64,000 nt of DNA from Paenibacillus sp. 481. Its GTDB lineage: Bacteria > Bacillota > Bacilli > Paenibacillales > Paenibacillaceae. Positions 32,896 through 54,584 of this stretch are shown here, one piece after another. The DNA is taken from contig NZ_CP075175.1 in the NCBI RefSeq assembly GCF_021223605.1, positions 1,902,001-1,966,000 of the forward strand. The letters are read 5' to 3'. A program made the position numbers and the translations under genes. The notes under the pieces were generated by a model, which saw only the letters and a list, made by a program, of their open reading frames with translations, did no database searches and was not told the DNA's origin. The stretch's first letter is position 1. The number at the start of each line of letters is the position of its first letter.

Positions 32896-33330
32896 TACGC
32901 AATGCACCTTCCCTAAAATAGAATGAGATAAAACACAACCTATACTATGTCCAGTACTCATGAGGTATTACTTCTAAATTTGGAGGATGGCTTGCGTCTA
33001 TTATGTTCGGTGACATGTGTGGACGTTCCAAAAGTCAAAGGACCGAGAAGCATTTCTTTTGACTATAGTATGCGGGACATTTGAGGCGACTAGATGGCTG
33101 TATGGAGGCGTTATTCATGGTGCACAAGTGGTTCGGGATTACAATTTCATCATTTGTTTAATCGGGATTGGCGTATGTGCACAGGGAGGGCTCCAAAAAT
33201 TGGAGATACATCGAGCATGGTTCGGCTATCTTATTGCATCTCGCATTGCCACCGCTTCGCTTACACGCAGATACGAAAATGGGTGTAGCCTAACAGCTGT
33301 GGGCTGTCGGGTTGTTGGGCTGTTGGGCTG

Positions 33331-33489
33331 TTGGGCGGGCTGCCCAGCTGTGGGCTGTCGGGCAGCTACATAGCTGTTGGGCGGGCTGCCCAGCTGTGGG
33401 CTGTCGGGCAGCTACACAGCTGTTGGGCTGTCGGGCGGCTACATAGCTGTTGGGCGGGCTGCCCAGCTGTGGGTTGTCGGGCAGCTACA
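33331..33489. repeat. GC-rich 40-bp repeat, three copies, in a repetitive stretch
   Basis: Three nearly identical 40-bp units begin at 33331, 33377 and 33450. Around them (33293-33535) the sequence is composed of GCTGTTGGGC, GGGCTGCCCAGCTG and GTCGGGCAGCTACA words, with many CAGCTG palindromes. Several chance open frames run through it. No gene is supported between 32896 and 34600. Confidence 0.75.
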
Positions 33490-33540
33490 CAGCTGTTGGG
33501 CTGTTGGGATGCCCGGCTGCTCAGCTGTGGGCTGATCGCC

Positions 33541-34040: not shown

Positions 34041-34282
34041 GAGGTTCTTGGGGTGCTTGAGGTGCTTGAGGTGCTTGAGGCGCTTGAGGCACTTGAGGTA
34101 CTTGAGGTGCTTGAGGCGCTTGAGGCGCTTGAGGCACTTGAGGCACTTGAGGCACTTGAGGCACTTGAGGCGCTTGGGCGCTTGGGGCGCTTGAGGCGCT
34201 TGAGGCGCTTGAGGCGCTTGAGGCGCTTGAGGCGCTTGAGGCGCTTGGGGCGCTTGGGGCGCTTGGGGCGCTTGAAGCTCTT
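34041..34282. repeat. 9-bp minisatellite (GAGGCGCTT), 27 units
   Basis: Twenty-seven head-to-tail units of GAGGCGCTT and variants (GAGGTGCTT, GAGGCACTT, GGGGCGCTT). One unit at 34176-34183 has only 8 bases, which shifts all reading frames. The plus strand would give Leu-Glu-Ala and then Leu-Arg-Arg runs, the minus strand Pro-Gln-Ala runs. Confidence 0.9.
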
Positions 34283-34384
34283 GAGATTTTCAGTGTCTAC
34301 TGCTTCGCTGCTTAGCCAAAGTAAATTTGGAGGTTGGGCAGCTTTCGCTCGCCCACAATATGCTCAAGTCGGGCACGATGACAC

Positions 34385-34600: not shown

Positions 34601-37078
34601 TTAGCCTTGAATACGAAGGCTGCGGCTCTCGACATCATCGGATACCGTGATGTTGAGTGTATCGCTAGCTGCTTCGTACGTCCAAGAAGCAGCGCCTTCA
34701 ACGGCTGTCGGCTCAAAGCCGAGGTGCTTCATCTGGAACGTAAGCTGCGTACGACGCGCTGCGAAGCCATGGTTTGCGTAGCTGTAGCTAAGCGCAGCTC
34801 CATTTGCTTCACGGGAAGCCGTTACGCGCAGCACGTTGTAGCTGCCTTGCTCGAAGGCAAACGTTACGCCGTCATCCTCATACAACGTGTATGCGGATTC
34901 GCCTTCAGCTGCCAAGCCGTAGCTCGTAAACGTGATCGCATCGCGCTCAGCGTCGTCTTTACGATCGTCTGCATGCAACTTCGCCAAGCCCTCTGTGATG
35001 ATGCCGCCTTCCTTCACGTAAATCGGCATCTTCTCAAGCGGTGCATCCGCCAAAATCGCACGACCACCTTCGTGACGCTCGCCTGTCCAGAAGTCGTACC
35101 ATACGCCTTCTGGCAAGTATACGCCACGGAACGTTGTGCCTGGACGCAAGATCGGCGCAACGAGCATATCGCTACCGAACAAGAACTGGTCGCACATGTT
35201 CGTTACGTTCGGATCGTGCGGATATTCCAGCACGAGCGGACGAATAACAGGCATGCCTGTCTCTGACGCTTCACGGAACAACGTATACAAGTGCGGCATC
35301 AAGCGGTAGCGCAGCTCGATATAGCGACGGTTGATGTCCTCAACCTGCTCACCGAATGACCACGGCTCTTGACGAATCGTACCGATGTTCGAGTGGTTGC
35401 GGAAGTACGGGAAGAATACGCCCATCTGCATCCAACGCGTAAGCAATTCTGGTGATGTATCGTGCGCGAAGCCGCCAACGTCCGGACCTGCGAACGCCAA
35501 ACCGGACATCCCCATGTTAAGCACCATCGGAATCGCCATCGACATATGCTCCCAGAAGCTGCGGTTGTCGCCTGTCCATACTGCTGCATAGCGCTGAATT
35601 CCGCTATAGCCAGCGCGCGTCAATACGAATGGACGCTCGCCGTCGATTTGCTCTTTCAAGCCCAGATACGTTGCACGCGACATCAGCATACCGTACAAGT
35701 TGTGCAACTCTTCATGCGTCATCGGTTTGCCGTTATTTTTGTGCATAACGTCCAGATCCATCGTCTTCGACTCGTTAAACACAGCTGGCTCGTTCATGTC
35801 GTTCCATACGCCACGAATACCGAGCTCTGTGTAGAAGCGGTGCTTCTCGCCCCACCAATGGCTTGCTGCATCATCTGTAAAGTCAGGGAACGCACTGTCG
35901 CCCGGCCATACTTTGCCGATAAACAGGTCGCCTTCTAGCTTCGCACAGAAATGACCAGCACGTACGCCTTCTTGGTAAATCGGGTAACGCGCATCCTGCT
36001 TCACACCTGGGTCCACGATCGGAACGATGCGAATACCCATTTCAGCTAGCTCGTTCATCATTGCTTCTGGATCTGGGAAGCGGTCTTGATCAAACGTAAA
36101 TACACGGTACTCATCCATATAATGAATGTCGAGATATATAACATCACATGCAATTCCTTTTTCACGGAATGTGCGTGCTAGTTCCAACACTTCTTGTTGT
36201 GTCACATAGCTGTAACGGGATTGATGGTAGCCAAGCGCCCATTTTGGCGGCAAGGATACACGTCCTGTCAACGCTGTGTAACGTTGGATAACGTCTTTCA
36301 TGTCTGGTCCAACCATCAGGTAAAGATCGAATGCACCGACATGGGAAGCGACGCGATATTGGTCGCCGTGATGGCGCATATCGAAGTCAGTCCGACCTGG
36401 GTTGTCCAAGAACAACCCGTAGACGCTGCCTTGATTCATATGCAACATAAACGGAATCGACTCATACAACGCCTCGATTTCTGGCACGTGCGGATCGAAG
36501 ATGTCTGAGTTCCACATCGTGTAACGCTCACCGCGCTTATCAAGGAAGCTCGTCTTTTCACCCAAGCCGTACACATGCGACGTTTGCGGCATATCAAGCC
36601 AAGCTGCCGTTTCGCCGCGCTTCGTCCAGTTCAGCTTGCGCGATTGCGCCAAAGCCTTACCTGTCGCATCTTCCAAGCGCCAAGTCAAATCGGACTTCAC
36701 AATAACGAGACGTGCATCGCTTGTTGCGCAAACGATTTCACAATCGGTTTCAGTAACCGATACGGCTACATTACCATCGATTTCTGTCGCCTCGTTGCGG
36801 AAAGCGCCAGACTTCAAGTTCTGCTTGCGCTCCTCTTCACCAAGTACGCCCGCAGACGTCGTCCAATCGATCGCTTCGCCGCGTTTGAACAAACGAATGC
36901 GTACCATACCTGTATTCAACCAGCGAACGCCCCACACTGCACGTTCACCATGAACAAGTGTAACTCCCTCTGTCTGCTCCAAGCGCACAAACGCGCCCGG
37001 CTTCATCGCCGTGTTGTCTCCACCCTCATTATTCCCGTCAGCATGCTGGTCCGGATGAATTGCTTCACTTGTCAACAT
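34601..37078 (-). CDS. Glycoside hydrolase family 31, probable alpha-glucosidase
   Basis: An 825-residue cytoplasmic GH31 enzyme (no signal peptide). After an N-terminal beta-sandwich (to about residue 240) the TIM barrel begins at LPPKWALGYHQSRYSYVTQQ. The catalytic nucleophile is the Asp of GVWNDMNEPAVF (about residue 425) and the acid/base is probably the Asp of WTGDNRSFWEHM (about residue 500); C-terminal beta-domains follow (VYLPEGVWYDFWTGERHEGG). It hydrolyses terminal alpha-linked glucose from imported oligosaccharides. ATG 37078 follows GGAGAG by 6 bases. Last gene of the sugar operon; alpha-xylosidase is a less likely alternative. Confidence 0.9.
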   Translation of the reverse strand: MLTSEAIHPDQHADGNNEGGDNTAMKPGAFVRLEQTEGVTLVHGERAVWGVRWLNTGMVRIRLFKRGEAIDWTTSAGVLGEEERKQNLKSGAFRNEATEIDGNVAVSVTETDCEIVCATSDARLVIVKSDLTWRLEDATGKALAQSRKLNWTKRGETAAWLDMPQTSHVYGLGEKTSFLDKRGERYTMWNSDIFDPHVPEIEALYESIPFMLHMNQGSVYGLFLDNPGRTDFDMRHHGDQYRVASHVGAFDLYLMVGPDMKDVIQRYTALTGRVSLPPKWALGYHQSRYSYVTQQEVLELARTFREKGIACDVIYLDIHYMDEYRVFTFDQDRFPDPEAMMNELAEMGIRIVPIVDPGVKQDARYPIYQEGVRAGHFCAKLEGDLFIGKVWPGDSAFPDFTDDAASHWWGEKHRFYTELGIRGVWNDMNEPAVFNESKTMDLDVMHKNNGKPMTHEELHNLYGMLMSRATYLGLKEQIDGERPFVLTRAGYSGIQRYAAVWTGDNRSFWEHMSMAIPMVLNMGMSGLAFAGPDVGGFAHDTSPELLTRWMQMGVFFPYFRNHSNIGTIRQEPWSFGEQVEDINRRYIELRYRLMPHLYTLFREASETGMPVIRPLVLEYPHDPNVTNMCDQFLFGSDMLVAPILRPGTTFRGVYLPEGVWYDFWTGERHEGGRAILADAPLEKMPIYVKEGGIITEGLAKLHADDRKDDAERDAITFTSYGLAAEGESAYTLYEDDGVTFAFEQGSYNVLRVTASREANGAALSYSYANHGFAARRTQLTFQMKHLGFEPTAVEGAASWTYEAASDTLNITVSDDVESRSLRIQG

Positions 37079-37205
37079 ATGCCTCTCTCCTTCTTTATCC
37101 ATAGTGCTTCTATCTCTATTTATATGTGGTTAACACCTATTTTACCTAATGATACCACTGTGTTCCTATGACATGTTTAACGTCACAGCATAACTAATAC
37201 AGCAT

Positions 37206-45838: not shown

Positions 45839-45985
45839 GTTGTACCTCCTGCCTCTTCTTTTTATTTCCCTCATCCTAGCACATCAAAAAAAGTGTTGTC
45901 TACCTAGGCATATACCGTGAACGGCTTACTTGTTACTGCATAGCATGCAACAACATGATTAAGGTGGAAAGGCGGTATTTGGGAT

Positions 45986-47068
45986 ATGGAAAGGTGGCAA
46001 GCAGGTGGGAAAAGCCGACGACAACGATCGAGTACTTCTTCCCGAAAAGTTGTAAAGCTCAAATCCAGTTCAAAGCAGCGACCTCAATCTCCACGAAAAC
46101 ATTCGCCTCAAAACCACGTCACTTTGTTTTTTTCATCCAATCTAAAAGAACAGACCACAGCAAACAAACCAGCAAGCAGTCCCAATCGACAGAGCCCAAA
46201 ATCGCTTCCCATCCATAAGCAGACACCTCATTCACGCACAAAACGTGTACGCAGTAATAGTTACACGAATAGCAAACACTCCCGCCGTAATCGAGCACAC
46301 GGGATCTTATTGTTTCCTGTTATTAAAAAAAGGACGCCCTCTCGTGTGCAAAAGGACCATACACAGCAGCTTCGTGTTGCGGGAGTCGTCAAGAGACTAC
46401 TAGCAAGGGAATTGAGCACACATCATATTATTCCTTTTAATAAGGCGAACGTTCACGATCTTCGACTGCATATGAGCAGAGCGAAAAAAAACAATCGGCA
46501 CAAACGTAAGGGCGCTAAAATTCACAATGCGCTCAAAAGTATGATTCAGTTGCGACCTCATCGGAAACGATTCTCTAAAAAAAGGAGAAGATGTCACTCG
46601 CAGCGACGCAACTGCTTCATACGCCCACCTTCTCCTCGCCGCCCCATTTTTCCACCCAAACGTCCGCCTGAATGTTGTCCACCACCATGCGGGAAAGGAG
46701 AACCGATTGTAGTTCCTGGTTCTCAAACGGTTTTTGGGGAGCAACGATTTCTGAATTTAAGCTTCGATCAGGCTCTGACGCTGCCATATCAAGACACGTC
46801 CGTAACGAGCACACTTTCATATGCGATTATTAATCGAGGCTCTTCGCCGCTTGTTATTCAATTGGAGATTAGCCCGAATGCACAAGACTTTGTGGTGGAT
46901 AGCAGTGAAAGTATTCCGAGTGGGGCGATGAGGGTTATTACACCAAATCGATTTTTACGCTTTACGCGCTTAACACTAGCTCCAATTGAAGAAGGTGATG
47001 CCGGATACGCCGATGTGTACTATCAGAAGCAGACGTGGGGGTTAGCTCCTTGCTCACAAGCAAGCTAA
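45986..47068 (+). CDS. Basic coat-like protein with C-terminal DUF6385-type domain
   Basis: A 360-residue protein in two parts. Residues 1-225 are extremely rich in Arg, Lys, Ser and His (for example RHKRKGAKIH, RPHRKRFSKKRRR), like CotG-type coat proteins. A Cys/Pro knot (PPECCPPPCGKG, about 227-238) joins it to a globular C-terminal domain (about 244-360) with YAIINRGSSPLVIQLEIS and NRFLRFTRLTLAP. This domain aligns with the C-terminus of the next gene. I believe it is the one listed as DUF6385. No signal peptide. AAAGGCGG stands 10 bases before the ATG. The start could lie further in, but no later ATG has a ribosome site. Confidence 0.7.
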   Translation: MERWQAGGKSRRQRSSTSSRKVVKLKSSSKQRPQSPRKHSPQNHVTLFFSSNLKEQTTANKPASSPNRQSPKSLPIHKQTPHSRTKRVRSNSYTNSKHSRRNRAHGILLFPVIKKRTPSRVQKDHTQQLRVAGVVKRLLARELSTHHIIPFNKANVHDLRLHMSRAKKNNRHKRKGAKIHNALKSMIQLRPHRKRFSKKRRRCHSQRRNCFIRPPSPRRPIFPPKRPPECCPPPCGKGEPIVVPGSQTVFGEQRFLNLSFDQALTLPYQDTSVTSTLSYAIINRGSSPLVIQLEISPNAQDFVVDSSESIPSGAMRVITPNRFLRFTRLTLAPIEEGDAGYADVYYQKQTWGLAPCSQAS

Positions 47069-47110
47069 CAAAATAAGCTACCAATAACTGTCGAAGGAGG
47101 AAGGAAAGCG

Positions 47111-49159
47111 ATGCCGAACTACAATGTGTTTCAAACGGACCCCAACAATTTACGCACGCTTATTTTCGGCAGTGACAGTACGGGGACGCCTCAAACGATT
47201 CTCACGGATACAAGCGGCCATATTTTGAATATACCGGTAGACGGTACGATTACTAGCGTGCTGGGGGCTACCATCACTGCGGGTACCCTTACTTCCGCAG
47301 GTACAGTTACGAACCTCCTTAACGGTACCATCACTAGCGTGCTGGGCGCTACGATCACCGCGGGGACTTTAACTTCCGCAGGCACAGTTACGAACCTGCT
47401 GAACGGTACCATCACTAGTGTACTTGGTGCCACCATCACTGCGGGGACTTTGACTTCCGCAGGCACAGTTACGAACCTGCTTAACGGCACCATCACTAGC
47501 GTGCTGGGGGCTACCATCACCGCAGGGACTTTAACTTCCGCGGGCACAGTTACGAACCTCCTTAACGGTACCATTACTAGCGTGCTGGGGGCCACCATCA
47601 CCGCGGGGACTTTAACTTCCGCGGGCACAGTTACGAACCTCCTTAACGGTACCATCACTAGCGTGCTGGGGGCTACCATCACTGCGGGGACTTTGACTTC
47701 CGCGGGCACAGTTACGAACCTCCTTAATGGTACCATCACTAGCGTGCTGGGCGCCACCATCACTGCGGGGACTTTAACTTCCGCGGGCACAGTTACGAAC
47801 CTCCTTAACGGTACCATTACTAGCGTGCTCGGCGCCACTATCACTGCGGGTACCCTTACTTCCGCAGGTACTATCACCAACCTGCTTAACGGCACCATCA
47901 CTAGCGTACTCGGGGCCACCATCACTGCGGGTACCCTTACTTCCGCAGGCACTATCACCAACCTGCTCAACGGCACCATCACTAGTGTACTCGGCGCCAC
48001 CATCACTGCGGGTACCCTTACTTCCGCAGGTACCGTCACCAACCTACTCAACGGCACCATCACTAGTGTACTCGGCGCCACCATCACTGCGGGTACGCTC
48101 ACTTCCGCGGGCACTATCACCAACCTACTCAACGGCACCATCACTAGCGTGCTCGGCGCCACCATCACTGCAGGTACCCTTACTTCCGCAGGTACCATCA
48201 CCAACCTGCTCAACGGTACCATTACTAGCGTACTCGGCGCCACCATCACTGCGGGTACCCTTACTTCCGCTGGTACCGTCACCAACCTGCTTAACGGCAC
48301 CATCACTAGCGTGCTCGGCGCTACCATCACCGCAGGTACACTCACTTCCGCGGGAACCGTTACCAACCTGCTCAACGGCACCATCACTAGTGTACTCGGC
48401 GCCACCATCACCGCGGGGACTATCACCAACCTGCTTAACGGTACCATCACTAGTGTGCTCGGGGCCACCATCACCGCAGGTACCCTCACTTCCGCGGGCA
48501 CCGTCACCAACCTGCTTAACGGCACCATCACTAGTGTGCTCGGTGCCACCATCACAGCAGGTACCCTTACTTCCGCGGGCACTATCACCAACCTGCTCAA
48601 CGGTACCATCACTAGCGTGCTTGGCGCTACTATCACAGCGGGTACGCTCACTTCCGCGGGTACCGTCACCAACCTACTCAACGGCACCATCACTAGTGTA
48701 CTCGGCGCCACCATCACCGCAGGTACCCTTACTTCCGCAGGTACTATCACCAACCTGCTTAACGGTACTATCACCAGCATACTCGGGGCCACCATCACTG
48801 CCGGAACTTTAAGCAGCGTTACTTCCATCTCACAAAAAAGCTTTGTCGAACAATCAACACTCGCTATTCAATCCAACACAACAGCATTCACCCCGTTACC
48901 AGCCGTAACGACCAGCGTCTTGGGGACCTACTCCTTTTTTGTCTACAATCGACAAGGCGGATCAATAACTACTCGCGCAGAAGTTAGCGCGGACGGGGTT
49001 CACTATTTAGTAGATACCACAGGCAGCACGATAGCTGCCGGTGCAACCGACGTAGTTGTGCCTGCTCGATTTTTGAAGTATACGCGTTTGTCATATGCCT
49101 CAGCACTACTGGCCGCACCTGCAACGATTGATGTCATTTTTAACGCACAAGGAACGTAG
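47111..49159 (+). CDS. Repeat fibre protein with C-terminal DUF6385-type domain
   Basis: A 682-residue protein. Residues 1-43 form a short N-terminal region (NVFQTDPNNLRTLIFGSD). Residues 44-550 are 19 repeats of 27 residues, with unit 15 shortened to 21, and a degenerate twentieth follows from 551. Each unit has four Gly-started turns with Thr at fixed places (GTITS, GATIT, GTLTS, GTVTN). Residues 575-682 match the last domain of the upstream protein (YNRQGGSITTRAEVS, PARFLKYTRLSYA). No signal peptide, no Cys, no charged residues in the repeats. Likely a surface or spore fibre, and with so many Thr/Ser a good glycosylation target for the three transferases downstream. Strong GAAGGAGGAAGG site. 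Confidence 0.85.
   Translation: MPNYNVFQTDPNNLRTLIFGSDSTGTPQTILTDTSGHILNIPVDGTITSVLGATITAGTLTSAGTVTNLLNGTITSVLGATITAGTLTSAGTVTNLLNGTITSVLGATITAGTLTSAGTVTNLLNGTITSVLGATITAGTLTSAGTVTNLLNGTITSVLGATITAGTLTSAGTVTNLLNGTITSVLGATITAGTLTSAGTVTNLLNGTITSVLGATITAGTLTSAGTVTNLLNGTITSVLGATITAGTLTSAGTITNLLNGTITSVLGATITAGTLTSAGTITNLLNGTITSVLGATITAGTLTSAGTVTNLLNGTITSVLGATITAGTLTSAGTITNLLNGTITSVLGATITAGTLTSAGTITNLLNGTITSVLGATITAGTLTSAGTVTNLLNGTITSVLGATITAGTLTSAGTVTNLLNGTITSVLGATITAGTITNLLNGTITSVLGATITAGTLTSAGTVTNLLNGTITSVLGATITAGTLTSAGTITNLLNGTITSVLGATITAGTLTSAGTVTNLLNGTITSVLGATITAGTLTSAGTITNLLNGTITSILGATITAGTLSSVTSISQKSFVEQSTLAIQSNTTAFTPLPAVTTSVLGTYSFFVYNRQGGSITTRAEVSADGVHYLVDTTGSTIAAGATDVVVPARFLKYTRLSYASALLAAPATIDVIFNAQGT
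47240..48760 (+). repeat. Array of 81-bp coding repeats (19 units)
   Basis: Nineteen in-frame units of 81 bases, except the fifteenth, which has 63. Units 1-7 share ACAGTTACGAACCT and mostly CTG/GGGACTTTA codons; units 8-19 share ATCACCAACCT or GTCACCAACCT and CTC/GGTACCCTT codons. Differences are nearly all synonymous. Confidence 0.95.
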
Positions 49160-49284
49160 CCCGTATAGGCTTCATACAATACAATATAATCAATCGATGC
49201 ATACGAAGCACATGGATTCCATGTGCTTCTCTGTTTTATTCGACCACTTCTTAACGCTACTACTTATCACTTGGAGGAACGCAT

Positions 49285-51528
49285 ATGAACAAGGTGCCCA
49301 CACTCGGCATACTTATTCTCGCCCGTAACGAAGCGGAACAAATAGGAGCCTGCCTAGCTAGCGTCTCTGGTGCTGACGTTTGTCTTGTAGCCGACACTGG
49401 CTCAACAGATGGCACAGCTCAAATCGCACGCGACTGTCAAGCAACCGTTATTCATTTGGCATGGGAAGACCACTTTTCCACAGCTCGAAACAATGCTTTA
49501 ATGCAACTTCACACAGACTGGGTGCTCGTATTAGATGCAGATGAACGCTGCCTTACATCTATATCCGACATTCGCACGCTTATTTATACGGCGCGGCATG
49601 AAGCCTTTACCGTGCAAATAGAAAGTCGCATTCACGATGAAGATGTTTATCTTAGCGTTACTCATCACACCGTACGCTTATTTCGTCGACGTGCCGAATA
49701 TGAATACCGAGGAATCATTCACGAAGACATCGCCCCCTCCATTATTGAGCACGCAGGCAACGACTCTGTTTCTGCCAGCTTTATACGATTTGCCCATAAC
49801 GGTCTGTTACCCTCCATCATGCAACGAAAAGATAAGCTAATCCGCAATGCTCGCTTACTCCGAGCTGCCTTGCTACTCAATCAGCATGATCCTTTCATCT
49901 TATATGGATTAGGTGTCACCGCCTGTCAACTCCAGCATCCCGATCAAGCCATAGACTGGTTTCAACTAGCCCTGCTACATGCCCCCAAAGATGCCTCCTA
50001 CCGTTCAACGCTCATTCGTGACACAGCCAAAGCCCATTTTGCAATAGGCGAGCTTTCAGCAGCGGAACAATTCACGATGACAGGTATCGCAGACTACCCC
50101 GACTATCCCGACTTGCACTTGCTTCTAGCATCTATTCTGGAACAGCAAGGCCTATTAGTTGAAGCGCTCGCTTCCTGTCAGACCGCATTAAGCGCAGAAG
50201 CTAATCAATTTGCCACCGAGACAGGTACGTCAAGCTTTCTCGTACACACGAAAATGGGAGCCCTTTGCTGCGCATTAGGACGATATCAAGAAAGCGCACA
50301 ACATTACTACACGGCACTGAAGCAGCACCCGCGTTACGAGCCAGCTCTCCACGGCGTTGTAGAAGCATTTTGCGAAAAAGGTATTGTAGAAGAAGAAATT
50401 GCATACTTTGTTGAAAATTTATGGGGAAGCGTGCAGCTTCCAGAGGCCGCCCCCTTAATTCGAGTATACCGTCAGGCTGGATTCGCAAGTTCCCTTTCCC
50501 GTATCTGTTCTCCGCAGCTGCAACATCCCCAAGCGCTATTTGGCATCGCTTCTGCTTGGATGATGACGAACCGCCATAAAGAAGCCGCCAGTTTGCTGCA
50601 ATCGTTACTGGAACGACATCTACTGCCTGAGCATGAACGCACCTTATTAGAAGGGTTGCACGCCCTTAGCCTTTGGCAGACAAATATACAAGACCCATTA
50701 CTGCGCTCACAACCTCATCCAAGCTGGAGTTCGTCCACACAAGCAGCGTGGCATTGGCTCATTGGACAGACTGAACACGTACAGGCACAGACAGAACAAC
50801 CAAACACGAACGTAGCCTATTCACCAATAGTGACCGAACTTGATCAACAGGAACACCATGCGGGCGAGAACGATAAATCCAACGCTCAACTTGCAGACTC
50901 TAATGACAACAGCAGCGACCATGATCAGTCTAAACGTGTGGAACCTCCCATTTCAGAAGCCTTATTCGATACATTGTGTACATGGATACGACTCCTAGAG
51001 GAGCATGCAATCGTGCACCCTTTAACATTTTGGGCACGCTTCGGTACGCCGTGGGATGCTCGCTGTATGAAGGCGCTTTTTCACGCGGGTCATACGAACG
51101 AAGCAGCCAACTATTTTTTGGCGGCCATGTCTAAGCAGCAACTTGATGCGGAAGGAGCAATTATGCTGGCAGAATTGCTCCTCGAAAAAGGGCATTGGAG
51201 CGAAGCCGTCGACTTATTGGAAGGTGCGCAAAAACTCACACAATCCGACGTTGAATCGCAAGGGCATTCCAACAAGCACCTACGAGAACAAGCCATACGG
51301 CTGAATTCAATGCTGTCCCTTGCCTACGTCCAGCTCGCCATCCGTCATCTAACAACCGCCATCGAACTGCAACCAGACATTCCCGAATGGAAAAATCACC
51401 TTCAGTCCTTGAATCTAGCAGTTTCCCGTGTGAATCAGCTTCCTTGGCGCACAAAGCGTTCAACGATACAAAGGAGGGTTCAGCACCTTGTCCAATCCAC
51501 TTCTATCGGTCTGTCTCATCGTTCGTGA
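49285..51528 (+). CDS. Family 2 glycosyltransferase with TPR-like C-terminal region
   Basis: A 747-residue cytoplasmic protein. The GT-A domain (about 1-230) opens with LGILILARNEAEQIGACLAS, has ADTGSTDGT for nucleotide-sugar binding and the metal-binding DADE of VLVLDADERC, and the acceptor-side LFRRRAEYEYRGIIHEDI. From about residue 230 helical repeats follow (LYGLGVTACQLQHPDQAIDWF, YQESAQHYYTALKQHPRYEP), as in SunS-like peptide glycosyltransferases. Between about 500 and 550 there is a polar insert. GGAGG stands before ATG 49285. First of three related genes behind the repeat protein. Confidence 0.85.
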   Translation: MNKVPTLGILILARNEAEQIGACLASVSGADVCLVADTGSTDGTAQIARDCQATVIHLAWEDHFSTARNNALMQLHTDWVLVLDADERCLTSISDIRTLIYTARHEAFTVQIESRIHDEDVYLSVTHHTVRLFRRRAEYEYRGIIHEDIAPSIIEHAGNDSVSASFIRFAHNGLLPSIMQRKDKLIRNARLLRAALLLNQHDPFILYGLGVTACQLQHPDQAIDWFQLALLHAPKDASYRSTLIRDTAKAHFAIGELSAAEQFTMTGIADYPDYPDLHLLLASILEQQGLLVEALASCQTALSAEANQFATETGTSSFLVHTKMGALCCALGRYQESAQHYYTALKQHPRYEPALHGVVEAFCEKGIVEEEIAYFVENLWGSVQLPEAAPLIRVYRQAGFASSLSRICSPQLQHPQALFGIASAWMMTNRHKEAASLLQSLLERHLLPEHERTLLEGLHALSLWQTNIQDPLLRSQPHPSWSSSTQAAWHWLIGQTEHVQAQTEQPNTNVAYSPIVTELDQQEHHAGENDKSNAQLADSNDNSSDHDQSKRVEPPISEALFDTLCTWIRLLEEHAIVHPLTFWARFGTPWDARCMKALFHAGHTNEAANYFLAAMSKQQLDAEGAIMLAELLLEKGHWSEAVDLLEGAQKLTQSDVESQGHSNKHLREQAIRLNSMLSLAYVQLAIRHLTTAIELQPDIPEWKNHLQSLNLAVSRVNQLPWRTKRSTIQRRVQHLVQSTSIGLSHRS

Positions 51529-53059
51529 CGAAGAAAAAATGCTACCCGCATGTCTTAATAGCGTTAAACATATCGCCGATGAAATCGTAGTCGTGGACAC
51601 AGGCTCTGTCGATCACTCGGTGGACATTGCGAAGCAGTACGGGGCTAAAGTGCTGCACCACGTGTGGAAAAATGATTTTGCTGCTGCGCGCAACGTTGGA
51701 CTAGAGGCTGCGACAGGTAGTTGGATACTCACACTTGATGCTGACGAAACCCTACATTGTGCAGATGCAGGGTTATTACGTGACACGATATTGCAAACAG
51801 AAGAGCACGTAGAAGGGCTACTGCTGCAAGTGGAACATGTCGTTTCCAACGATGTGCTCGCCGAGCCTATGAACGTGAATCCGATCTTGCGATTATTTCG
51901 CAATCGACCAGCCTACCGCTTCGAAGGCCAGATCCATGAACAAATCGCGGCAGCTATACTGCGCAGCCAGCCACAGGCTGCGCTGACCTTTTCTCGTCTG
52001 CGGATACGCCATTATGGCTACTGTCCAGAAATTGTACACGATAAGCGAAAGGTGGATCGCAATGTAACAATGCTGCTCGATATGCTGGAACGAACCCCCC
52101 ATGATCCGTTCCACTTATTTAATTTGGCGGTAGAGCGAATTCGCGAAGGAGCGCACGAGAAGGCGCTGAACTTATTGCGCGAGGCTCGCCAGCATACACC
52201 TGTAACGGCTACTTTTGGCCCGCTCATTATTAAGTATGAAGCGTGGGCTTTAGCCGCACTGGGACGTTATGAAGAAGCGGCCAACGTGTGTACGGAAGGA
52301 CAACAATGGTATGAGGGCTATACCGACTTATACTTTTCAGAAGCGATTGCGGCAGACGCAGCAGGACTTCGAAGTCGTGCCTTACAAGCCATGCAACGCG
52401 CCATTGATATTGGTATACCAGAATCTCACTACCATACCGAAAGCGGCATTGGCACGTATCGTGCCCAGCAACAACTAGCTATATGGGCAGTAGAATCACG
52501 ATTATGGAATGAGGCATGCACAGCTTATACAGCAGCCCTTCACGCTGACGGTTGTACCGAACCCATTTGGCTTGAAGCCTCTCGTCTATACACCGTATTA
52601 CGCTGTTCTTGTGTGCAGCATGCAGGAAGTGACACAGGAAATGACACGGGAAATGAGGCGGAAAGTACAACTTTTTTCACAATTAACATCGTGAGTCAAA
52701 GCAAACTGGATCAACTGCAACATGCGCTCGATAAATGGACACATTCGCCGCAAGCAGAACGCCGTAGATCGGCTTGGCCTCCATCTAATAGTAGTTCTGC
52801 ATACAAGTCGCTAACCGATTCATTAACCTATATGCAAGCGGCAGAACGTACACTTATCCGGTTGCAACAGCTATCTCCCATACTTAACAACGCAGCAATT
52901 GCAAGTCGACTGTCTATTCCACTACTCCCGCTTGGCCTTGTGGTTCGCAGTGAGATTCACAATAAGACTCATACCGATAGAGGTAGCAAAGTTAATATAG
53001 AAGCTCATAGCGAGAGCGAAACGGACAACAGGGCTGAAAAAAATGTATACAGCACCTAA
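51488..53059 (+). CDS. Family 2 glycosyltransferase with TPR-like region
   Basis: A 523-residue paralogue of the genes on either side: LSVCLIVRDEEKMLPACLNS, VVDTGSVDHSVDIA, WILTLDADETLH (DXD motif) and LRLFRNRPAYRFEGQIHEQI, then helical repeats (FHLFNLAVERIREGAHEKALN). It starts with TTG, nine bases after AAAGGAGGG, and overlaps the preceding gene by 41 bases, so the two are coupled. No membrane segment. Sugar donor unknown. Confidence 0.85.
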   Translation: MSNPLLSVCLIVRDEEKMLPACLNSVKHIADEIVVVDTGSVDHSVDIAKQYGAKVLHHVWKNDFAAARNVGLEAATGSWILTLDADETLHCADAGLLRDTILQTEEHVEGLLLQVEHVVSNDVLAEPMNVNPILRLFRNRPAYRFEGQIHEQIAAAILRSQPQAALTFSRLRIRHYGYCPEIVHDKRKVDRNVTMLLDMLERTPHDPFHLFNLAVERIREGAHEKALNLLREARQHTPVTATFGPLIIKYEAWALAALGRYEEAANVCTEGQQWYEGYTDLYFSEAIAADAAGLRSRALQAMQRAIDIGIPESHYHTESGIGTYRAQQQLAIWAVESRLWNEACTAYTAALHADGCTEPIWLEASRLYTVLRCSCVQHAGSDTGNDTGNEAESTTFFTINIVSQSKLDQLQHALDKWTHSPQAERRRSAWPPSNSSSAYKSLTDSLTYMQAAERTLIRLQQLSPILNNAAIASRLSIPLLPLGLVVRSEIHNKTHTDRGSKVNIEAHSESETDNRAEKNVYST

Positions 53060-54584
53060 CACCTCCCTACCGTTCGGCGCATCTTCCTATCCCATCTCAC
53101 TTTGCATGATTGTGCGTGATGAGCAGCATGTCTTGGCCCGCTGTTTGCAAGCAGCATCTTCTGTCGTAAGCGAAATCATTATTGTCGACACAGGCTCTGT
53201 CGATGACACCCTTCATATCGCAGCCAAATACGGCGCACTCGTTCATCATCATGCCTGGGCAGATGACTTTGCAACTGCGCGTAATCTAAGTATCGAAATG
53301 GCTACGCAGCCTTGGATTCTTGTATTAGACGCCGACGAAGTGCTCGACTTCGACAGTTGGCAGCCTCAACTGCTGTTGCCACTGCTAGCTGATGAACAAG
53401 CATTTGGCTATTACGTTACTTGCGCGCATTTGAGCGAACCATGGTTCACAGATAAGGAGCGCCCAGCCACTATCGCCACGGATATGGTGTGTCGTCTCTT
53501 TCGCAATGACAAGCGAATTCGTTTTCAAGGACGAATTCACGAGGAAGCCGCTACAGCGGTTGCTGCCATCGCACCGCATGCATTAGGTTGGTCACAGTTG
53601 TGCATTTGGCACGACGGATATACCGATATAGAAATTAAACGCAAACGGAAATCGGAGCGCAATTTCCGGCTCATTCAGTTGATGCTCATAGAAGAAGCTG
53701 CTAATCCTGTATGGCCGTATGCCTACGGGACGGAGCATTTTCAGTTGCAGCAATATGATCAGGCCTTGCCTTGGCTGCTGCAAGCCATTGAAATGATTTG
53801 TGCCGAGCCTGAACCACACCCAGGCTATGCTTCGGATATATGGTTAAAAACGGTGTATGCCATGCAGGCTTCAGGCCGCAGTGATACGGCGTTGCAATTA
53901 GCCAATCAGGCACTCACCTATTACCCCGATTATCCGGATTTACTTGAATTGAACGCTTCATTGTTGCTTGGCAAGCAGCAATACGCGGAAGCCCGTACAG
54001 CGGCACTAAACGCTGTGCAATATGAAGCTACATCGCAGCACTATCAGCGCTACACGTCAACCGCAGGTGCGGGCAAATGGCGCTCCTATTGGTTAGCAGG
54101 ATATGCGTCAGAACATTTGCACGATTATGCGACTGCTTATCAGTGCTATAAACGCGCATGCCACACTTTTCCGTTCACACTCGGACAGTTAGCATTAACG
54201 TGTGCATCCTGCTGGATGGCATGCTGCATTACCCGACATCCGGCTTCAGCACATAGAGCCGAAGTGCCTGAAATTGAAGCGGAATTCAACAAACTGAAAC
54301 AGATTATTCATGTATTAGAATCTGCTGTAGATCAGAATAAAACTTCACCTAGCTGCCAAAAAATAAAGACAGATTCAGATCCAACACTTGAAGCAATCAC
54401 TCGAAAGCTCTCAAGCGAGCTTCACATGACCGAACACGAACGCCACTTTCTATTGGGCACTTGCTATACGACATTAGCTAAGCGACAGATGCGGTTGCTT
54501 AATCAACCTTGTTTCTCACCGCCTGACAACAAAAATACAAAGGTCGGACAATGGGTACTCCCTTTTTTATTGCGCACCCTCTAA
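53043..54584 (+). CDS. Family 2 glycosyltransferase with TPR-like region
   Basis: A 513-residue third paralogue: ISLCMIVRDEQHVLARCLQA, IIVDTGSVDDTLHIA, WILVLDADEVLDF and CRLFRNDKRIRFQGRIHEEA, followed by helical repeats (GTEHFQLQQYDQALPWLLQA). It overlaps the previous gene by 17 bases and has only a weak ribosome site, so it depends on translational coupling. Overlaps among all three imply a fixed-ratio set acting on one substrate. Confidence 0.85.
   Translation: MYTAPNTSLPFGASSYPISLCMIVRDEQHVLARCLQAASSVVSEIIIVDTGSVDDTLHIAAKYGALVHHHAWADDFATARNLSIEMATQPWILVLDADEVLDFDSWQPQLLLPLLADEQAFGYYVTCAHLSEPWFTDKERPATIATDMVCRLFRNDKRIRFQGRIHEEAATAVAAIAPHALGWSQLCIWHDGYTDIEIKRKRKSERNFRLIQLMLIEEAANPVWPYAYGTEHFQLQQYDQALPWLLQAIEMICAEPEPHPGYASDIWLKTVYAMQASGRSDTALQLANQALTYYPDYPDLLELNASLLLGKQQYAEARTAALNAVQYEATSQHYQRYTSTAGAGKWRSYWLAGYASEHLHDYATAYQCYKRACHTFPFTLGQLALTCASCWMACCITRHPASAHRAEVPEIEAEFNKLKQIIHVLESAVDQNKTSPSCQKIKTDSDPTLEAITRKLSSELHMTEHERHFLLGTCYTTLAKRQMRLLNQPCFSPPDNKNTKVGQWVLPFLLRTL

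Follow-up and report, generated by a model that had tools for sequence, protein, structure and literature searches.

Organization of the locus

The DNA stretch analysed here, a window of 64,000 nucleotides, corresponds to positions 1902001-1966000 of the complete 5.69-Mb genome of Paenibacillus sp. 481 and contains a cluster of five genes that probably encode a glycoprotein of the endospore surface together with its modifying enzymes. In order, the genes code for a basic protein with a DUF6385 domain, a repeat protein that also carries DUF6385, and three family 2 glycosyltransferases (GT2s) with tetratricopeptide repeats (TPRs) of varying strength, referred to below as GTA, GTB and GTC (Table 1). 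An initial annotation, made from the sequence alone, had described five genes in a row, the last three overlapping, with one C-terminal domain common to the first two products and no signal peptides. The open reading frames agree with this description: all five are on the plus strand, GTA and GTB overlap by 41 bases and GTB and GTC by 17 bases, DUF6385 is found in both of the first two proteins, and inspection by eye revealed no hydrophobic N-terminal signal in the five products. A cell-wall anchor was not visible either. In a scan of named genomes, the closest relatives with the locus were Paenibacillus species. A search of open-access papers found none dealing with DUF6385, and searches of such papers for Paenibacillus spore or exosporium glycoproteins yielded no description of the five-gene set.

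Table 1. Positions in the window of the genes, domains and motifs of the cluster
Feature	Position	Strand	Remarks
Predicted sigma-K-type promoter	45915..45947	+	CCGT-N20-CATAGCATG; also AC-N16-CATAGCATG; 5 of 6 consensus bases of CATANNNTA
Basic partner protein, 360 residues, isoelectric point 11.6	45986..47068	+	Low-complexity Lys/Arg/Ser-rich N-terminal part
DUF6385 of basic protein, residues 270-350	46793..47035	+	Pfam PF19912, 83.7 bits
Repeat protein, 682 residues, candidate spore-surface rod and glycosyl acceptor	47111..49159	+	
N-terminal signature MPN[FY]xxFxxDPxNLRTLIFGxD, possible docking motif	47111..47176	+	Kept in relatives across genera
Tandem array, 18 full 27-residue units GTITSVLGATITAGTLTSAGT[VI]TNLLN and one 21-residue unit	47241..48812	+	Predicted all-beta rod
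DUF6385 of repeat protein, residues 601-680, predicted beta-jellyroll	48911..49150	+	Pfam, 86.8 bits
GTA, GT2 with TPRs, 747 residues	49285..51528	+	DADE motif in 71 of 71 sequences
GTB, GT2 with weak TPRs, 523 residues, TTG start	51488..53059	+	D[AG]DE motif in all sequences
GTC, GT2 with TPRs, 513 residues	53043..54584	+	Closest solved relatives GmaR and SunS

The repeat protein

The second gene encodes, as had been noted, a long Thr/Ser repeat protein (26% Thr, 8% Ser, no Cys, isoelectric point 5.0), in which an N-terminal part of 44 residues is followed by the array, with a period of 81 base pairs throughout, and by the C-terminal DUF6385. The 18 full units are identical in protein sequence save for V or I at one site, yet a pair of units differs on average at 11.0 third, 0.94 first and 0 second codon positions. 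The sequence of the repeat protein is under strong purifying selection, and the units are therefore old and held by selection on the protein rather than freshly duplicated. The 545-residue open frame on the minus strand opposite the array (47191-48828) is a by-product of the 81-base-pair period, and a similar frame lies opposite the repeats of a Cohnella locus (L151, see below).

Among 186 units of 27 residues, the hydroxyl positions stay Ser or Thr while the two residues exchange, and the Asn of an NGT sequon is Asn in 42% only. N-glycosylation at this sequon was rejected on the latter ground. The absence of Cys, the kept Ser/Thr positions and the unkept Asn, taken together, point to O-glycosylation of the repeat protein without proving it. 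The unit, a 27-residue GTITSVLGATITAG... and not G-X-Y, gave no Pfam match to collagen.

AlphaFold2 modelled residues 1-300 as a regular three-strand beta repeat (predicted local distance difference test score, pLDDT, of about 85-91 over most repeats; predicted template-modelling score 0.77), with the first 45 residues poorly predicted. The model supports a rod or fibre form for the repeat protein.

DUF6385 and the basic partner

The genome holds just two DUF6385 domains (PF19912, cut-off 26.8 bits), those of the cluster. The domain was modelled by AlphaFold2 as a jellyroll with pLDDT mostly 90 or above. When the model was compared with the PDB using Foldseek, the Ena subunits Ena3A, Ena1B, Ena2A and Ena1C were among the first 13 matches (8pdz, 7a02, 9i0y and 9t3p; E 1.9e-4 to 1.2e-3), and C1q (5hba; E 4.9e-3) ranked behind Ena and others. 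Since PirA and XepA, jellyroll-like too, were also matched, the likeness to Ena supports the fold and not kinship. Ena subunits are spore-surface proteins whose jellyroll resembles the predicted DUF6385 fold; the repeat protein differs from them in having a long repeat stalk and dedicated glycosyltransferases and in lacking a cysteine connector. No protein of the cluster matched the Ena Pfam domains (DUF3992; F-ENA DUF4183) in a Pfam-A search at E 0.1. Proteins of 805-1012 residues with weak, sub-cut-off DUF6385-like matches (L011-L013, L022-L024) occur in several genomes of the genus, some of them without the DUF6385 pair.

The basic DUF6385 partner is present in most relatives. Its earlier label, CotG-like, fits in composition, the protein being very basic and rich in Ser, Lys and Arg as CotG-type coat proteins are, but does not extend to family membership: a Pfam scan gave no CotG match, a repeat search found no tandem repeats in the gene, and the protein has a DUF6385 domain in place of tandem basic repeats. 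Clostridial partners lack this basic character, and two of the four scanned contain CBM96. This carbohydrate-binding module, carried by the partner proteins of two loci outside Bacilli (L237, 9459-10448; L238, 9464-10282), suggests sugar binding by the partner, and partner and rod may also bind through sugar.

Three glycosyltransferases

All three enzymes contain a GT2 domain, and the D[AG]DE motif is intact in every sequence. The earlier description of three GT2/TPR genes holds in full for GTA and GTC, with Pfam TPR models over the cut-off (one model in the case of GTC), but for GTB the TPR scores stay below it (19-21 bits). In a tree of 78 glycosyltransferases the sequences of each gene position fall into a clade of their own, and bootstrap support is 100% for all three clades. 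Such separate, ancient lineages suggest an initiating enzyme and two that extend the glycan or differ in specificity. In each clade the enzymes of B. methanolicus and Fictibacillus group with those of the same Paenibacillus species, and the locus may thus travel as a unit. The genome has further GT2-TPR genes at G000:C1:4350312-4353770 and 2816507-2817556.

The best PDB match of the GTC GT2 domain is GmaR of Listeria (E 1.9e-27). GmaR is a cytoplasmic GT2-TPR protein that adds O-linked N-acetylglucosamine (O-GlcNAc) to flagellin. It is also a flagellar antirepressor (PMC9638930), and it differs from the enzymes described here in substrate and regulation.

The name SunS-like, given in the initial annotation, is justified for the fold, as SunS and ThuS share the GT-A fold and a homologous catalytic domain with the three enzymes, but not for the family: GTA, GTB and GTC reach 57.8, 85.2 and 99.7 bits with the SunS model (TIGR04195), whose cut-off is 350. 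It is therefore extremely improbable that the locus is a SunS-type system S-glycosylating a bacteriocin-like peptide. Scores on the SunS model and matches to SunS structures are what would be expected of such a system, but the cut-off is not approached, the candidate acceptor has no cysteine, and no bacteriocin export or immunity genes were found among the neighbours read. Enzyme homology, together with the Ser/Thr pattern of the units, supports glycosylation of the repeat protein.

Conservation and distribution

DUF6385 over the cut-off was found in 9 of 19 genomes of the genus, and all nine keep the order of the five genes (split at contig ends in one of them). Full-length GTA is present in exactly these nine genomes and absent from the other ten. 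Across Paenibacillaceae, 93 of 297 genomes have DUF6385 above the cut-off. We also collected 80 loci from named genomes of Paenibacillus, Cohnella, Alicyclobacillus, Kyrpidia, Fictibacillus and Bacillus methanolicus and counted the glycosyltransferases downstream of the repeat gene in the 70 loci with 7.5 kb of downstream sequence. In 69 of them the number is exactly three. The odd locus, L151 (Cohnella AR92), has two and an insertion of about 4.4 kb; its sequence ends where the third would lie, and it is probably merely cut off. The co-occurrence of the DUF6385 pair with the enzyme trio, put forward in the initial annotation as a point to check, is thus borne out in genus and named genomes.

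DUF6385 occurs in 54 of 398 genomes sampled from the phylum (about 14%). In a distant set of 40 loci, taken from other Bacilli families and from elsewhere in the phylum, the repeat proteins often start with MPN or MAN, continue with Ser/Thr-rich units (NLTAASLLTTAQ and FQTAQSNLQARV are examples) and end with DUF6385, so that unrelated repeats keep the same protein ends. In 29 of these loci GT2 genes are found no more than about 10 kb away. One could argue that the proteins are spore-surface components but that the GT2-TPR trio modifies something else, or that only some of the three enzymes act on the repeat protein. The 11 distant loci that lack a clear GT2 in the vicinity (contig ends truncate some of them), the variation in glycosyltransferase number from 0 to 4 at distant DUF6385 loci and the further GT2-TPR genes of the Paenibacillus sp. 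481 genome would all agree with this. We nevertheless consider it unlikely, given that the repeat gene directly precedes the trio almost invariably in Paenibacillaceae and relatives, that GT2 genes co-occur even with unrelated repeats and that the Ser/Thr positions of the unit are conserved.

Among 399 genomes of Bacilli, 48 have DUF6385 over the cut-off, and SpoIVA is present in 48 of these 48, compared with 265 of the 399 overall (hypergeometric probability 6e-10, kinship ignored). In the rest of the phylum, SpoIVA was detected in 47 of the 49 carriers tested and in all 40 near-complete ones; the two negative carriers are assemblies that are 75-80% complete. SpoIVA was not matched in five genomes that belong to a single genus of the same family (G024, G042, G055, G066 and G076), and these have no DUF6385 either. 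The five-gene kit recurs across many spore formers and almost only there.

Promoter elements upstream of the cluster

The sigma-K consensus is AC / CATANNNTA. Its two elements lie 14-16 nucleotides apart (PMC517825). Upstream of the first gene of the window, a -10 element CATAGCATG is present at 45939-45947, with AC 16 bases before it. Among relatives, CATANNNTR was found upstream of the first gene in 42 of 55 loci (5.2 expected), and CCGT-N20-CATA, starting 33-83 bases before the annotated start, in 40 of the 55. The sequence TATAAT occurs in none of the 55, with 4.5 expected. When the comparison was limited to 28 dissimilar upstream sequences, 12 contained CATANNNTA (1.3 expected) and none TATAAT. 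A direct scan for AC-N15-17-CATANNNTA gave few matches in Paenibacillaceae, where what is conserved is the -10 element preceded by CCGT. In the distant families, the same pattern was found in 15 of 77 upstream sequences, where 0.72 would be expected and none of 200 shuffles reached that number. The spacing most often seen between AC and CATA is 17 (11 of 28 sites). These distant elements match the sigma-K promoter.

Of the two sporulation sigma factors named in the initial annotation, only sigma-K left a strong trace: neither sigma-E nor sigma-A elements were clearly enriched in the upstream regions tested. The enrichment among relatives suggests the operon of the window as a candidate for sigma-K control. 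A scan of its own genome for CCGT-N20-CATANNNTR retrieved 31 matches, many within genes, and the reversed pattern 23, which makes the regulon search uninformative. In one group of loci (L116-L142), a strongly conserved inverted repeat AACGGC-N4-GCCGT, possibly an activator site, lies about 20 bases before the -10 element.

Growing cells commonly display glycoproteins with Thr/Ser-rich repeats, and one may ask whether the cluster makes a vegetative-cell surface glycoprotein, such as an S-layer protein or an adhesin, rather than a spore component. This appears very unlikely, as neither a signal peptide nor a cell-wall anchor is visible, the carriers tested all have SpoIVA (the two incomplete assemblies aside), and the upstream regions are enriched in sigma-K-type promoters and, in the dissimilar set, devoid of TATAAT.

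Other repeats in the window

About 27 copies of the 9-base-pair unit CTTGAGGCG (34047-34285) lie just past the 3' end of a glycoside hydrolase-like gene (34601-37102, minus strand). GC-rich tandem repeats of 46 and 73 base pairs are located at 33296-33508, in a stretch without a convincing gene.

Discussion

In our view the cluster is likely to be an operon expressed late in the mother cell under sigma-K, producing a glycosylated rod of the endospore surface together with its own O-glycosyltransferases. A role in spores, initially proposed from the sequence, has gained support from co-conservation, sigma-K-type promoters and the distribution limited to SpoIVA carriers. The repeat protein would be made in the mother-cell cytoplasm and fold as a beta-rod with Thr/Ser side chains in register and the DUF6385 jellyroll at its C-terminal end. 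In the same cytoplasm, GTA, GTB and GTC, GT-A enzymes whose TPR arm could hold the repeats, would attach sugar to the Thr/Ser hydroxyls. The basic protein would most likely co-assemble through DUF6385, its positive tail anchoring the complex to the coat or exosporium. Lysis of the mother cell would expose the rods, so that a secretion signal would not be needed.

Several observations weigh against this interpretation. The -10 element of the window misses one of six consensus bases, and its -35 match is AC only. DUF6385 is found in about one third of Paenibacillaceae genomes, which points to an accessory spore feature, and the distant loci with no clear GT2 nearby have to be counted here as well. 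Jellyroll folds are common, and with a TM of about 0.6 the matches to Ena are moderate. No PDB entry matched the rod model significantly, the nominal best being the hyper-glycosylated beta-helix TibA (E 0.01), and structure prediction can be misled by perfect repeats.

The closest functional parallel is found in C. difficile, where SgtA, a GT-A enzyme with TPRs, adds O-GlcNAc to Thr of BclA3, encoded adjacent to it (PMC7157674), and where bclA1-3 are under sigma-K control (PMC3789822). By analogy, the cluster would work like BclA3/SgtA, with a spore-surface acceptor served by its own cytoplasmic glycosyltransferases: BclA3 is likewise a Thr-rich spore-surface repeat protein next to a GT-A and TPR gene, and the three enzymes resemble SgtA in their GT2 domains, in their TPRs (below the cut-off in GTB) and in their position beside a Thr-rich candidate acceptor. 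The scaffold described here is, however, not collagen-like and has no sequence relation to BclA3; there are three enzymes instead of one, as well as a DUF6385 partner, and DUF6385 stands where BclA-type proteins have a C1q/TNF-like C-terminal domain. By their defining features the products are DUF6385 proteins and GT2-TPR enzymes, and not BclA, SunS, CotG or Ena.

The sugars on the surface of spores control adhesion, dispersal and recognition by the immune system, and to our knowledge little is known of the proteins that carry them beyond the B. cereus group and C. difficile. The locus gives DUF6385 a testable function and links the domain to sporulation, and a compact operon of acceptor, partner and three enzymes is handy for work on cytoplasmic protein O-glycosylation and spore display. 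We would give an even chance to the broader proposal that these loci represent a phylum-wide, previously unrecognised class of spore-surface glycoproteins, in which beta-rods with an Ena-like DUF6385 jellyroll, interchangeable Ser/Thr-rich repeats and dedicated mother-cell O-glycosyltransferases would fill, in many Bacilli and Clostridia, the role of the collagen-like BclA nap of the B. cereus group.

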